A stretch of 64,000 nucleotides of DNA from Kocuria carniphila (GTDB lineage: Bacteria > Actinomycetota > Actinomycetes > Actinomycetales > Micrococcaceae): assembly GCF_004136555.1 (NCBI RefSeq), contig NZ_NOIT01000003.1, forward strand, positions 124,001 through 188,000, read 5' to 3'. The position numbers and the translations under genes were made by a program. Below the pieces are notes generated by a model that was not told the DNA's origin, searched no databases, and worked only from the letters and a program-made list of their open reading frames with translations. Shown here one piece after another: positions 14,597-20,759 of this stretch; position 1 is the stretch's first letter; every line of letters begins with the position of its first letter.

Positions 14597-14705
14597 AGGC
14601 GAATGTCAGGGGGGATCCAAGGAAACTCATGAGCACTTGGCAATGACGCCAGTCACAGTCTTTGAAAATCGTTGGCTGTGGCATGACCCGTCGGAGGATT
14701 ACCCC

Positions 14706-16139
14706 ATGAGCTCGTCAGATACTCTCACGAACGCGACTGCCGTTCGTGGAGCTAAGCGCTTGTCGCTCAAGCAATATTTCGGTTATGGATCCGGAGACAT
14801 GGCCAACAACATGGCCTTCTCCTTGGCCATTACATTTTTACCGCTTTATTACACTGATGTTGCCCTCATCAGCCCAGGAACCGTCGCCACGATATTCCTG
14901 GTGATGCGATTCATCGATGCCTTTACGGATGTCCTTGTCGGGTCGTTCGTCGATCGGGCGAATACAAGGTGGGGCAAATTCCGTCCCTATATCTTGTTCG
15001 GCAGCGTTCCCCTGGTACTCAGTGTGATTCTGGCCTTCTCAATCCCTGGATCACTGCACGGCACCACTGGTGCAATCATTTGGGCTTGCGTCACATACTT
15101 CCTCATGGGCTCCATCGCGTACACCGCCGTGAACATCCCCTACGGCTCGTTGGCGGCCGCTATGACCGACAACAGCGAGGAACGCTCCAAGCTGGCCGTG
15201 TTCCGCACCGTGGGTTCTGCGCTCATGCAAATCACTACGGCTTTGGCTATCAGCCCAGCCTTGCAGGCCAACCGCGGAGATCCCGAGGCTCTGCAGTCCT
15301 CGCTGACGACCACTTTGGTCATACTGGGAATCGTTGCGATCCTGCTTTATCTCTTCTTGTTCGTCACCGCTAGGGAAAACGTTGAACGCAAGATCCCGCG
15401 CGTTGGTTTGAAAGACAGCCTCCGCACACTGGCGGCAAATCGGGCCTTGCAAGCACTAGCCATTATCTCCGTCATCTATCTCGCGGGCGTCTTCAGCTTG
15501 TCGGGAATGATGGCCTACTACGCTCGCGACGTCCTGGGTGACGCCCGATATTTGGCCATTTTCGGCCCCCTGCTCTTCGGTATGATCCTGGTCTTCGGCT
15601 GGGCCATCCCAACCCTTGCTCGAAGGATCGGCAAACCGCGTTTGTTCCAGCTCGCCGCTCTCCTCGGAACCATCGGTGGTGTCATGATCTGGCTGGTCCC
15701 CGGCCAGTCAATCGTGTTGGTTGTTATTGCGTTCGTTCTCGTTGGGACAAGTAGCGGGTTCGTGAACACTCTGATGTGGAACATGGAAGCCGATGCCGTG
15801 GAATTCGGCGAATGGAAGACCGGTTTCCGTTCGGAAGGCACCACGTATGCCGTCTTTTCATTCGTGCGCAAAATGGCTCAGGCGCTGGGTGGTTCCCTGG
15901 GACTCTGGATTATCGGATGGTTCGGCTACCAAGGCGGTGCAACCATGCAGTCTGAGTCCGCGCTCCAGGGGATTCGATTGTCCATGGGTCTTTTGCCTGC
16001 AGCATGTTTCCTGGTCGCAGCCGTTCTAGTGCAGTTCTACCCCCTGACAGATTCGCGCCACAAGCAAATCCTCACTGACTTGCGTTCTCGTAAGGAGACA
16101 GGAATCCTCCCGCAGACGCCTGAAGCCAGAACGGACTGA
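14706..16139 (+). CDS. GPH-family glycoside/glucuronide:cation symporter
   Basis: This 477-residue membrane protein has 12 expected segments and belongs to the glycoside-pentoside-hexuronide family, which includes UidB and MelB. Key family motifs are GYGSGDMANNMAF at the N-terminus, DRANTRWGKFRPYILFG in the loop after helices 2 and 3, VNIPYGSL, and MEADAVEFGEWKTGFRSEG near helix 10. It probably imports glucuronides for the beta-glucuronidase. GGAGG at 14693-14697 fixes the ATG at 14706. It is paralogous to the broken gene that follows and could compensate for its loss. GC is low (27 of 60 bases at 14821-14880). Confidence 0.9.
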   Translation: MSSSDTLTNATAVRGAKRLSLKQYFGYGSGDMANNMAFSLAITFLPLYYTDVALISPGTVATIFLVMRFIDAFTDVLVGSFVDRANTRWGKFRPYILFGSVPLVLSVILAFSIPGSLHGTTGAIIWACVTYFLMGSIAYTAVNIPYGSLAAAMTDNSEERSKLAVFRTVGSALMQITTALAISPALQANRGDPEALQSSLTTTLVILGIVAILLYLFLFVTARENVERKIPRVGLKDSLRTLAANRALQALAIISVIYLAGVFSLSGMMAYYARDVLGDARYLAIFGPLLFGMILVFGWAIPTLARRIGKPRLFQLAALLGTIGGVMIWLVPGQSIVLVVIAFVLVGTSSGFVNTLMWNMEADAVEFGEWKTGFRSEGTTYAVFSFVRKMAQALGGSLGLWIIGWFGYQGGATMQSESALQGIRLSMGLLPAACFLVAAVLVQFYPLTDSRHKQILTDLRSRKETGILPQTPEARTD

Positions 16140-16195
16140 GGTAGCCCAGCTAGTCGTCCCTGACATCATCTCTTCCGGTTCAAAGTCGCGTTGCG

Positions 16196-16227
16196 AGTGC
16201 CCCTGGTCATCGACCGGGGGCACTTTC
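16196..16227 (+). terminator. Terminator after the first GPH transporter
   Basis: AGTGCCCCTGGT (16196-16207) pairs with ACCGGGGGCACT (16213-16224), 12 pairs with one G-T, around a CATCG loop, and is followed by TTCG. It ends the uxaC-to-transporter transcript or the transporter's own message. Confidence 0.7.
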
Positions 16228-17330
16228 GCTGGCGGCAATTCCTGGAAACCACAAGCCTCAGATTTCATGCAGAGAGACACTCGTAGTCATAGGAAGGTAT
16301 ATCCCGCAGAACCACTTTTCCGACCATCGTGTACCGACATCACGAATCGGCACTGGGCAAAGGAGCCTAAATTGTCGACCCAACCTCACTCCTCTCCACA
16401 CACCGTCCGCCCTGGCACCAACGAGGCAATGAAGCCTCTCCCCTGGCGAGCTGTCTTCGGCTACGGCGCTGGCGACGCAGCCAACAACGTGGCCTTCATG
16501 ACCACCACTATGTTCTTGCTGGTCTACTACACCGACGTAGCAGGCATTTCAGCCGCGGCCGCGGGCACTCTTCTCGGCCTCGTCCGCATCTTCGACGCTT
16601 TCGCGGATGTCTTCGCGGGCCGCGTTGTCGACGGAGCAAAAGTCACCCGCTGGGGCAAGTTCCGCCCCTTCATACTTTTCGGCTCCATCCCCCTGCTGAT
16701 CCTGGCATTCCTGAACTTCCATGTCCCTCAGATCGGTGAGAGCGGGATGCTGATCTACGCATACCTGGCCTACGCGGCTATGGGACTGGCGTATTCCTTG
16801 GTGAACATCCCCTACGGCTCCATGGCTGGTGCCATGACACAACGTGACGGCGACCGCGCCAAGCTAGCATCCGCCCGTGTCGTGGGCGCCACTCTGGTGT
16901 CAGCGGCCCTGGGTGCCTTGGTCTCCCCCATGATTGTGCCTGGTCCGGGTCTGCAGAATATCTTCACGCGCGTACTGCTCATCCTCATTGTGATCGGTTT
17001 TGTGCTGTACATGTTCTGCTTCTTCAGCACCAAGGAACGTGTGCACAGGCCAGTAGCTCGCGTGTCCTTGAGGGACAGCATGAAGTCTGTGTCGAGCAAC
17101 AAGCCTCTCCTGCTCCTCATGGCCAGCTCGGTGTTCTTCCTGAGCGCCTACCTTTGCCTGAACACCGTACAGATCTACTACGTGCGCGACGTCCTCGAAC
17201 AGCCCACTTTGTTCCCCCTGATCGCGGGCGGACAGATGATTCTCACGCTGATCATGGTCGTTGCCATGCCCAAGCTCGTAACAGCATTCGGCAAGAAAAA
17301 GCTCTACATCGTCTTCAGCGCACTGGTAGT

Positions 17331-17336
17331 CCTAGG
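17331..17336. repeat. Target-site duplication, left copy (CCTAGG)
   Basis: This 6-bp direct repeat has its partner at 18454-18459 and flanks the IS481-family element. The minus-strand TAG inside it is used as the transposase stop codon. Confidence 0.93.
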
Positions 17337-18342
17337 TGTAAGAGGGCATGACGTTATTGGCAGGGGCCGGGACGCGTGAGGCCGGGGGATGATCGCCACA
17401 GGCGGTATGGGGCCGATGGTAATTGAAGTGGTTCACCCACACCCCGATCGCGTCCCGGCGGGCCTGCTCGCTGGAATAGGGGCGGGCGTAGAGGACCTCG
17501 TCGGCCAGCAGGCGGTTGTACCGCTCCACCTTCCCGTTGTGCCGCGGCGTGTAGGGCTTGATGCGCTGGTGGCGGCCGGCGAGGGCTTCCACGCAGCGGG
17601 TGAAGTCGCGGGCCCGGTAGTTGGCGCCGTTGTCGGTCACGACCCGGTGCAGCCGCCTGATGCCATGGGCGGCGAAGAAGGCCCTCGCCCGGCAGAAGAA
17701 CCCGATCGTGGTCACCGCCTTCTCGTCGTCGAGGGCTTCGGTGTAGGCCAGCCGCGAGAAGCCGTCCACGGCGGAGTGCAGGTAGGTGTAGCCGACCTTC
17801 GCTCCGGGCCCGCGCTTGGCCGCCTTCGCGGCGGTGGATCCGCGGCCGTGGGCCCGCCAACCGCCGCCGTCGGGGATCTTGCCGACCTTCTTCACATCCA
17901 GGTGGACCATGTGCCCGGGCCAGGCGGCGCGGATGCGTCCCGGGGCCCTGCGGGAGTTCTCGCCTGCGGGGGTGAGGTCGCGCAGCCGGGAGATCCCGAG
18001 TCGGTGCAGCCAACGGCCCACGGTACGCAGACTGATCGCCACGGCGCGGTCGGCCAGGTGACGGTGGATGCGCCGCGCCGACCATTTGCGGCCCCGGCGG
18101 AGCGTCTCGATAAGGTCGACGACCGCCGCCGGGGTGCGGGTGCTGCTGTGCCGCGGGGTCGAGGGCCGGTCGGTGAGCCCGGCTTCGCCGGACTCGAGGT
18201 AGCGGGCCACCCAGGTCGCCACCGTGGGCCGGCTGACGCGGAACTCGGCGGCCACGTGGGCCTTGGGGATCCCGTCGTCGAGGTGGCGCAACACCATGCG
18301 CAGCCGGCCGGTCGGGGTCAGGGGTGCATTAACGTGGGTCAT
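17332..18342 (-). CDS. IS481-family DDE transposase
   Basis: This 336-residue transposase has an N-terminal helix-turn-helix (residues about 10-60, with HVAAEFRVSRPTVATWVARY) and an integrase-core domain. DDE-type acidic residues are visible in HLDVKKVG, VVTDNGANYRAR and RHNGKVERYNR. The ATG at 18342 begins MTHVNAPLTPTG, typical of the family; an in-frame ATG at 18411 is less likely. The last codons run past the element: the final Thr codon and the TAG stop come from the CCTAGG target duplication, so this element depends on its CTAG target for a stop. Confidence 0.93.
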   Translation of the reverse strand: MTHVNAPLTPTGRLRMVLRHLDDGIPKAHVAAEFRVSRPTVATWVARYLESGEAGLTDRPSTPRHSSTRTPAAVVDLIETLRRGRKWSARRIHRHLADRAVAISLRTVGRWLHRLGISRLRDLTPAGENSRRAPGRIRAAWPGHMVHLDVKKVGKIPDGGGWRAHGRGSTAAKAAKRGPGAKVGYTYLHSAVDGFSRLAYTEALDDEKAVTTIGFFCRARAFFAAHGIRRLHRVVTDNGANYRARDFTRCVEALAGRHQRIKPYTPRHNGKVERYNRLLADEVLYARPYSSEQARRDAIGVWVNHFNYHRPHTACGDHPPASRVPAPANNVMPSYT

Positions 18343-18453
18343 GAACGGGCTCTCTCGTGCGGGCGGACGGTGTAGGAACTTCCATCCTGTGACGAGGAGC
18401 CCGTTCCTCATCTCATCGACGCACCCGCGCCAAGAACCTCATGACCCACAACA
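17337..18453 (-). mobile_element. IS481-family insertion sequence, 1,117 bp
   Basis: The element has TGT...ACA termini, imperfect terminal inverted repeats that match at 17 of 24 positions (17337-17360 and 18430-18453), one DDE transposase gene on the minus strand and a 6-bp target duplication CCTAGG (17331-17336 and 18454-18459). NCTAGN is the known target preference of IS481-type elements. It interrupts uidB. The clean duplication shows a simple, probably recent, transposition. Confidence 0.95.
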
Positions 18454-18459
18454 CCTAGG
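18454..18459. repeat. Target-site duplication, right copy (CCTAGG)
   Basis: This is the partner of the repeat at 17331-17336. Deleting one copy together with the element restores the uidB reading frame across the junction. Confidence 0.93.
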
Positions 18460-18993
18460 CGATGTCATCGTCTCCAGTATTCCCCGCGAGATGGTCTGGC
18501 TGGGATTCGTAGGACTGATGATCGCGCTACTCGGTGTGCTGGGCAACAACGTTGTGGTCTTTGCACTCGAAGCCGACACCGTCGAGTACGGCGAGTGGAA
18601 GACCGGTGTTCGTTCCGAAGGTTCCATTTACGCTGTCGTCTCGTTCACACGTAAGTGCGGCCAGGCAATCGGTGGCGCTCTCGCAGGCTGGGCCCTTTCC
18701 ATTGGCGGTTATGTCTCCGGAGCGACAGACCAAACGGCCGAAGCCATTGGCGGGATCCAGTTCGCCGCCGGCTACGTCCCCGCAATTCTGGCTCTCATCG
18801 CCACCGCCATCATGATCAAGTACCGCTGACCGAAAAAGCTCACACGGGCATCATGGAACAGATCAAGATTCGCCAAGAAACAGGCATGCTGCCGCAGGTG
18901 GATCCCTTCGAGGAAACCAAGAAGAAGTAATCAGTTCCCGCCGCGCTGCCGCGGCGACAACACACATTGACGAATCCACGAGAGGATAAATCC

Positions 18994-20223
18994 ATGAAGA
19001 TCACCTCGGCCAAGGTCATCGTGACCAGCCCCACCCGCAACTTCGTGACGCTGAAGATCACCACCGACGAGGGCGTCACCGGCATCGGTGACGCCACCCT
19101 GAACGGCCGCGAGCTGTCTGTCGCCACGTACCTGTCCGACCACATCGTGCCGCTACTGATCGACCGTCACCCCGCGAACATCGAGGACACCTGGCAGTTC
19201 CTCTACCGCTCCGGCTACTGGCGCCGCGGCCCCGTGACCATGGCCGCGATCGCCGCGGTGGACATGGCCCTGTGGGACATCAAGGGCAAGGTGGCCGGCA
19301 TGCCGGTGTACCAGCTGCTCGGTGGCGCCTCCCGCCGCGGGCTGTCCACGTACGGCCACGCCTCCGGGCGGGACACCGAGGAGATCTTCGACTCGATCCG
19401 CTCCGAGCAGGAGCACGGCTACACCGCGATCCGCGTGCAGTCCTCGGTCCCGGGGATCACCGCGCTGTACGGCGTGGCCGCCCAGCCGCAGGCCTCCGGC
19501 GAGCGCTCCGACTACCAGCCGGCACAGCGTGCCGCGCTGCCCGCGGAGGAGAACTGGGACACCCGCGCGTACCTGCGCCACATTCCGTCCGTCTTCGAGG
19601 CCGTGCGCAACGAGTTCGGCCCGGAGCTGCCCCTGTTGCACGACGGCCACCACCGCATGACTCCCATCCAGGCCGCCAAGCTCGGCAAGTCGCTCGAGCC
19701 CTACGACCTGTTCTGGCTCGAGGACTGCACCCCGGCGGAGAACCAGGAGGCCCTGCGGCTGGTGCGTCAGCACACCACGCAGCCGCTCGCCATCGGCAAG
19801 GTCTTCAACACGATCTGGGACATCAAGGACCTGATCTCCGAACAGCTGATCGACTACGTGCGCTGCGCGTCCACGCACTTCGGCGGGATCTCCCCGCTGA
19901 AGAAGGTCATGGACTACGCCGCGATGTACCAGGTCAAGTCCGGCTTCCACGGCTCCACGGACGTCTCCCCCGTGGGCTTCGCGGCGCAGCTGCACGTGGG
20001 CATGGCCATCCACAACTTCGGCCTGCAGGAGTACATGCCTCACTCGGAGAAGACCAACCAGGTCTTCCATCAGCACATGACGTTCGAGAACGGTCTGCTG
20101 CACCCCTCCGACACCCCGGGCCTGGGCGTGGAGATCTACGAGGATGAGGCGGAGAAGTACGAGTACACCACCGCGCACCTGCCCTACAACCGCCTCACCG
20201 ACGGCACGGTGCACGACCGGTGA
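18994..20223 (+). CDS. Mannonate dehydratase-like (ManD/RspA) enolase-superfamily protein with an altered metal ligand
   Basis: This 409-residue protein follows ManD throughout: SAKVIVTSPTRNFVTLK, the RSGYWRRGPVTM loop, DGHHRM, WLEDCTPAENQ and QEYMPHSE. ManD converts D-mannonate to 2-keto-3-deoxygluconate in the hexuronate pathway. The expected magnesium ligands are Asp, Glu and Glu spaced by 26. Here D217 and E243 are present, but position 269, where the family has Glu in GEVFN, is Lys (GKVFN, codon AAG). H219 and the rest are intact. Activity is therefore doubtful, or the fold serves another reaction. The ATG at 18994 follows GAGAGGA. The stop overlaps the gluconokinase start. Confidence 0.85.
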   Translation: MKITSAKVIVTSPTRNFVTLKITTDEGVTGIGDATLNGRELSVATYLSDHIVPLLIDRHPANIEDTWQFLYRSGYWRRGPVTMAAIAAVDMALWDIKGKVAGMPVYQLLGGASRRGLSTYGHASGRDTEEIFDSIRSEQEHGYTAIRVQSSVPGITALYGVAAQPQASGERSDYQPAQRAALPAEENWDTRAYLRHIPSVFEAVRNEFGPELPLLHDGHHRMTPIQAAKLGKSLEPYDLFWLEDCTPAENQEALRLVRQHTTQPLAIGKVFNTIWDIKDLISEQLIDYVRCASTHFGGISPLKKVMDYAAMYQVKSGFHGSTDVSPVGFAAQLHVGMAIHNFGLQEYMPHSEKTNQVFHQHMTFENGLLHPSDTPGLGVEIYEDEAEKYEYTTAHLPYNRLTDGTVHDR

Positions 20224-20759
20224 GCGGGGTGAGCACGGACATCGCACCGCTCGTGGTGGTCATGGGCGTCTCGGGGTCGGGCAAGACCACGATCGGCACG
20301 CTCGTGGCCCACGAGCTGGGTGTGGACTTCGTCGACGGGGACAGCCTGCACCCCATCGAGAACGTCCAGAAAATGGCCTCGGGCACGCCGCTCGACGACG
20401 ACGACCGCTGGCCCTGGCTCGAGATCGTGGGCCGCACACTGCACGAGCGGGGTGAACAGCACGAGGGCATGGTGATCGCGTGCTCCGCGCTCAAGCGCAA
20501 GTACCGGGAACGGATCCGCTCGCAAGCGCCGTCGGCGTTGTTCCTGCACCTGGACGGGTCCGTGGCGGTGCTGACCCGGCGGATCGAGGGCCGCAGCGGG
20601 CACTTCATGCCGGCCACGCTGTTGCAGTCCCAGCTGGACACCCTCGAGCCGCTCGCGCAGGAGGAGGGCGGCTACAAGCTCGACATCGATCAGTCCGTGC
20701 CGGACATGGTGAACGAGGCAGTGACCAAGCTGCGGGCCATCGCGGCGGCGAACTCGTAG
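20220..20759 (+). CDS. gntK: Gluconokinase (GntK type)
   Basis: This 179-residue P-loop kinase phosphorylates D-gluconate to 6-phosphogluconate. Features are GVSGSGKTT at about residues 16-24, DGDSLHPIENVQKMASGTPLDD (the GntK substrate loop), IACSALKRKYRE, and GRSGHFMPATLLQSQLDTLEP in the lid region. The GTG start overlaps the ManD-like stop (GTGA), so the pair is coupled. A kinase for 2-keto-3-deoxygluconate, the normal next step, is not in the window. The pairing leaves open that the adjacent dehydratase-like protein acts around gluconate rather than mannonate. Confidence 0.92.
   Translation: MSGVSTDIAPLVVVMGVSGSGKTTIGTLVAHELGVDFVDGDSLHPIENVQKMASGTPLDDDDRWPWLEIVGRTLHERGEQHEGMVIACSALKRKYRERIRSQAPSALFLHLDGSVAVLTRRIEGRSGHFMPATLLQSQLDTLEPLAQEEGGYKLDIDQSVPDMVNEAVTKLRAIAAANS

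Follow-up and report, generated by a model that had tools for sequence, protein, structure and literature searches.

The window, a 64,000-nucleotide stretch of Kocuria carniphila DNA, contains an insertion sequence body of 1117 bp with TGT...ACA ends on the minus strand (17337-18453), flanked on both sides by the sequence CCTAGG (17331-17336 and 18454-18459). The element interrupts a putative sugar-transporter gene of the MFS_2 type, read on the plus strand. The 5' part of this gene is at 16267-17336 (with the start of the mechanically called open reading frame; Pfam MFS_2, 4.3e-60 for 16267-17331), and its 3' part, defined by translation of the joined flanks, extends from 18460 to the end of the open reading frame at 18829. 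Removal of the element and one CCTAGG from the sequence joins the flanks into a single frame of 479 amino acids. Aligned at 467 positions, its product shares 38.8% identity with the transporter encoded just upstream. The split gene sits between this intact paralogue (14637-16139) and an MR_MLE gene of the enolase superfamily (18967-20223); next in order comes a small kinase gene (20220-20759). Taking the predicted functions together, the segment 14637-20759 is probably a cluster for the use of sugar acids in which one transporter has been lost. An Rfam scan of positions 16000-20500 gave no match.

The transposase gene (17332-18342, minus strand) codes for 336 amino acids from MTHVNAP, a start inferred by alignment; the mechanically called open reading frame starts at 18411 on the same strand and also reaches 17332. 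One terminal inverted repeat lies upstream of the gene (18428-18453, minus strand), whereas the other (17337-17362, minus strand) also encodes the C-terminus of the transposase (NNVMPSY and the first base of a Thr codon). Read inwards, the element ends are TGTTGTGGGTCATGAGG... and TGTAAGAGGGCATGACG..., with agreement at 18 of 26 positions. There is no in-frame stop before the end of the element. The final codons on the minus strand are CCC TCT TAC ACC TAG, and in the hybrid Thr codon ACC the A is the element base 17337 and the two C's are the target bases 17336-17335. The TAG stop (17334-17332) is made of target bases and lies inside the CCTAGG copy that adjoins the C-terminal end of the transposase frame, the other copy (18454-18459) being on the N-terminal side. 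The initial annotation had described a CCTAGG duplication fitting the NCTAGN preference of the IS481 family, a Thr codon with two target bases and a TAG stop within CCTAGG; these assignments proved exact in their coordinates, with the codons ACC TAG at 17337-17332.

Membership in the IS481 family was supported by the score of the transposase against the NCBIfam IS481 model (NF033577; 302.5 bits, cut-off 224), and Pfam matches were obtained to rve and rve_3 (integrase core) and to LZ_Tnp_IS481 (leucine zipper). Residues D149, D237 and E273, which do not vary among 14 aligned relatives, presumably represent the catalytic DDE residues as in other members of the family. D237 and E273 are separated by 35 residues, a typical spacing between the second D and the E in the IS481 family. 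The inverted-repeat ends TGT...ACA and the 6-bp NCTAGN duplication are likewise features of the family (6-bp group), and by its sequence features the element is a structurally complete IS481-family insertion sequence. The nearest named relatives belong to Kocuria and Micrococcus: those in two Kocuria genomes showed best-segment identities of 86-90%, and one on a Micrococcus plasmid reached up to 75.1%. Copies with 92% identity were found in another genome of the window's genus. The closest relative in the same genome (C43) has 78% DNA identity; it contains one in-frame TGA in one alignment and none in a shorter matched stretch, and its ends were not callable. Another relative in this genome (L007, contig C45) is 2441 bp long, is flanked by GCTAGG duplications and carries a gene for a MerR-type regulator; this gene lies upstream of the transposase gene, in the alignment of which one in-frame TAG appears.

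It has already been published that elements of the IS481 family borrow their stop codon from the target (PMC2516522, PMC6794481). In PMC6794481 (2019) the TAG of the flanking duplication is described as the stop codon of the ISRe46 transposase. ISRe46, which belongs to the IS481-family transposon TnRErm46 of Rhodococcus equi, resembles the window element in its NCTAGN duplication, and its inverted repeat TGTTGCGGGTCATGACGTTG agrees with that of the window element at 17 of 20 positions counted by eye. TnRErm46 is, according to the same text, a 6.9-kb transposon with passenger genes, whereas the window element consists of the transposase alone; copies on R. equi (Prescottella equi) plasmids have 61.2% protein identity to the window transposase. 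In PMC2516522 (2008), the stop codons of ISLxc2 and ISLxx4, two IS481-family elements of Leifsonia xyli, are placed within the host insertion site NCTAGN, and the authors remark that this translational end may impose structural limits, as in other family members. The two elements share the stop in NCTAGN with the window element but have different inverted repeats, and ISLxc2, unlike the window element, also has a premature in-frame stop. One of the two references cited there for earlier cases is the 1998 paper on Tn5564. A copy of the IS481-family element Tn5564/IS5564 in our survey (L424) has CCTAGA duplications and a TAG at offset +2 from the element end, as in the window element, but carries cmx upstream. 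IS870 of Agrobacterium belongs to the IS5 family and thus to another transposase family than the window element. Judged by the title of its 1993 description, a CTAG target is required to generate the stop codon of the large open reading frame of IS870, so that, by this title, the borrowed stop is published for that element as well. No family-wide count and no comparison with internal-stop relatives was found in the part of the literature that the search covered.

Loci of relatives were collected from genome contigs (80 loci kept of 341), viral contigs, further genomes and plasmids. The loci fetched are part of the matches listed, and the genome searches drew samples of larger groups. The sample, built on relatives of the window protein, is mostly from Actinomycetota and includes several copies from single genomes; IS481 groups with other duplication lengths, which are mentioned in PMC10045372, lie outside it. 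The calling of ends relied on inverted repeats and duplications and took no account of CTAG. A looser procedure gave several false ends and was replaced by this stricter one. Of the 355 transposase hits in the first set, 296 had callable ends and 59 did not; removal of repeats left 282 elements, and dropping five calls with weak ends and no YTAR flank (three extended, one without a stop in the contig and one internal) left 277. The second set (L362-L428, 67 loci) yielded 31 elements with callable ends, of which 30 were kept and one (L386; weak ends, no YTAR flank) was dropped by hand. Merging of the sets and renewed removal of repeats gave 300 non-redundant elements. Hits not reaching query residue 300 were left out. 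Stop classes were judged at the C-terminal end only, and frames broken upstream may be included; an unbroken frame of at least 270 amino acids from near the aligned start was present in 268 of the 286 elements with target-supplied or internal stops. When ends were called by inverted repeats only, the same ends were obtained in 290 of the 291 elements passing (nine of the 300 were too weak for the test), with 209 exact duplications and the same four core sequences, whereas with shuffled pairing of left and right flanks the number of exact matches among the 291 averaged 21.6 and never exceeded 35.

The stop codon was supplied by the target in 244 of the 300 relatives, lay inside the element in 42 and was reached only in an extended frame in 14. 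All 244 target-supplied stops were in the same phase, at offset +2 (234 TAG, 9 TAA and 1 TGA), and the junction described for the window element is thus shared by most of the other copies inspected. This result bears on the notion of a coincidence at a single locus, where the gene would have been deprived of its stop by drift and would find another in its insertion site by chance. If the enzyme brings TAG to every site, such a loss would go unnoticed, but the offset +2 is common to the 244 relatives, of which the 228 that were clustered form 80 clusters at 75% identity. The survey counters an accident at one locus rather than drift in a distant ancestor, and we regard such a coincidence as having a negligible chance of being the explanation.

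Exact 6-bp duplications were found in 213 of the 300 elements, with the core CTAG in 199, TTAG or CTAA in 13 and GTAG in one; TTAG and CTAA cores also yield a stop codon, TAG or TAA. In 855,017 flanking positions the frequency of CTAG is 7.27 per 10,000, and its presence in 199 of the 213 exact duplications therefore goes beyond chance. Exact-duplication copies with a target-supplied stop (n = 186) had CTAG in 173, TTAG in 8 and CTAA in 5 cases, those with an internal stop (n = 27) CTAG in 26 and GTAG in one; at 75% identity these copies represent 70 and 17 clusters, respectively. An exact duplication was lacking in 58 target-stop copies, 56 of which had YTAR at the right end; the exceptions were L338 (GTAG at the right end, giving TAG, and CTAG at the left end) and L355 (CTGA, giving TGA). 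The 13 off-consensus sites (8 TTAG, 5 CTAA) showed no orientation bias (p = 0.58); as a stop results in either orientation, this test does not tell selection from preference. The outer N bases differ between copies and agree left and right within one copy, which supports a duplication of 6 bp and not of 4 bp. Because the last codon is A-N-Y, the terminal amino acid is determined by the first outer base: 79 of the 186 copies have C at this position, 61 have G, 28 have T and 18 have A, and the protein ends with Thr, Ser, Ile or Asn. On Pseudomonadota plasmids a target-supplied stop with an exact duplication was seen in 9 of 11 fetched loci (L415, L417-L423 and L427), including elements annotated ISBcen26 and ISRel2; in the remaining two the ends were not callable (L416, Rhizobium phaseoli) or an internal stop was present without an exact duplication (L428, Microvirga).

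A length of 1.9-2.7 kb, sufficient to accommodate an additional gene ahead of the transposase gene, was observed in 29 of the 213 exact-duplication relatives (among them L007, L035, L072, L097, L105, L158, L270, L313, L344, L348 and L424). A Pfam family was assigned to the extra open reading frame in 16 of 20 scanned: six MFS and one EamA transporter, six regulators (MerR, WYL, AraC and MarR types), two NAD-binding proteins and one hydrolase.

That all 186 exact-duplication copies with a target-supplied stop lie in stop-giving YTAR sites could also reflect survivorship, insertion being less specific than it appears and only those copies that landed on stop-forming sites staying active and being seen. 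The internal-stop relatives share the preference, however (CTAG in 26 of 27 as against 173 of 186; Fisher p = 1.0, with only 27 countable), and GTAG, which would give TAG and is with 22.8 per 10,000 flanking positions about three times as common as CTAG, is the core in none of the 186. Selective survival of this kind is thus a very unlikely source of the pattern. Because internal-stop relatives keep CTAG, the preference appears to be independent of the need for a stop. The dependence between target choice and translation end would therefore run one way: target choice makes a private stop dispensable, and there is no sign in the sequences compared that the need for a stop sets target choice. 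The initial annotation had called the two linked and had named copies ending translation inside the element as evidence to the contrary. The link holds in this one direction; copies of that kind make up 42 of the 300 and still target CTAG, while the 244 with target-supplied stops conform to the proposal.

It had further been suggested to test whether copies in non-CTAG sites carry extended transposases. Insertions outside YTAR with an extended transposase were sought among the 213 exact-duplication copies and none was found. None of the 14 extended copies has an exact duplication, whereas 186 of the 244 copies with a target-supplied stop have one (Fisher p = 6.4e-9). This difference would be expected if off-site copies made a long inactive transposase and the borrowed stop were a selected safety device for site fidelity; the position of the next in-frame stop in the window copy, 144 codons past the TAG, also fits. 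But YTAR is kept on the other side in 13 of the 14, and the extended copies therefore look like correct insertions damaged later and not like wrong-site insertions; no rejected wrong-site insertion was found in the survey of 300. In four of them (L057, L145, L206 and L275), in which the first in-frame stop lies 14-305 bases past the element end, the right junction looks to have undergone a one-base shift or mutation, and these are natural examples of losing the borrowed stop. A further extended copy (L287), flanked by CTAG at either end but with a difference in the last base, probably lost a stop of its own, since it is similar in its inverted repeat to the internal-stop element L286.

The distribution of the two states on trees also speaks against a selected safety device. 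On an unrooted tree of 102 representatives, built without the columns of the C-terminal tail, the state changes at least four times (the starred branches force at least three changes), and the borrowed-stop arrangement can therefore be gained or given up. An unrooted FastTree tree of 203 rows in which the tail columns were kept showed three changes. A single group (support 89, not starred) contains 17 of the 22 internal-stop representatives; outside it are L124, L366 with L367, and L142 with L150. In 34 of the 42 internal-stop elements the stop is at an offset divisible by three. A frame in this phase would not be closed by a CTAG site, and this suggests that internal stops arose via indels or truncation rather than by point mutation to a stop. 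We consider a proofreading role of the borrowed stop improbable, if less so than the two preceding alternatives.

The reading that we prefer, with a probability of roughly 0.93, is that the transposase gene has no stop of its own and that integration into YTAR sites, mostly CTAG, closes its frame in a fixed phase with TAG or TAA. The transposase would integrate into palindromic YTAR sites with a 6-bp stagger, as the duplications indicate, and the frame meets the element end in the phase ACA|N-Y-TAR. Whichever way a YTAR site is oriented, it then ends the frame with TAG or TAA, after a single hybrid codon (A-N-Y) beyond the element. Beyond the observed anatomy, fixed phase and site preference, we infer that this preference is a property of the enzyme, of which the element takes advantage by doing without a stop inside its own sequence. 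A wider reading is possible and is offered tentatively, as we think it somewhat doubtful: the target-supplied stop may be the predominant arrangement, and an old one, within the CTAG branch of the IS481 family in Actinomycetota and Pseudomonadota. YTAR would guarantee TAG or TAA in either orientation, and the arrangement might serve as a position check, a transposase of normal length being made only if the right junction is intact.

What the survey contributes beyond the published cases is a measure of how common the arrangement is, the YTAR rule, and evidence that the stop codon depends on target choice but target choice does not depend on the stop codon. For annotators it means that the transposase gene of such elements should be expected to end outside the element; in our sample, a frame that ran further went with a damaged or missing duplication and not with insertion at a wrong site. 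The IS481 elements thus provide a case of a coding sequence completed by the insertion site, for which scattered published examples have been turned into numbers.
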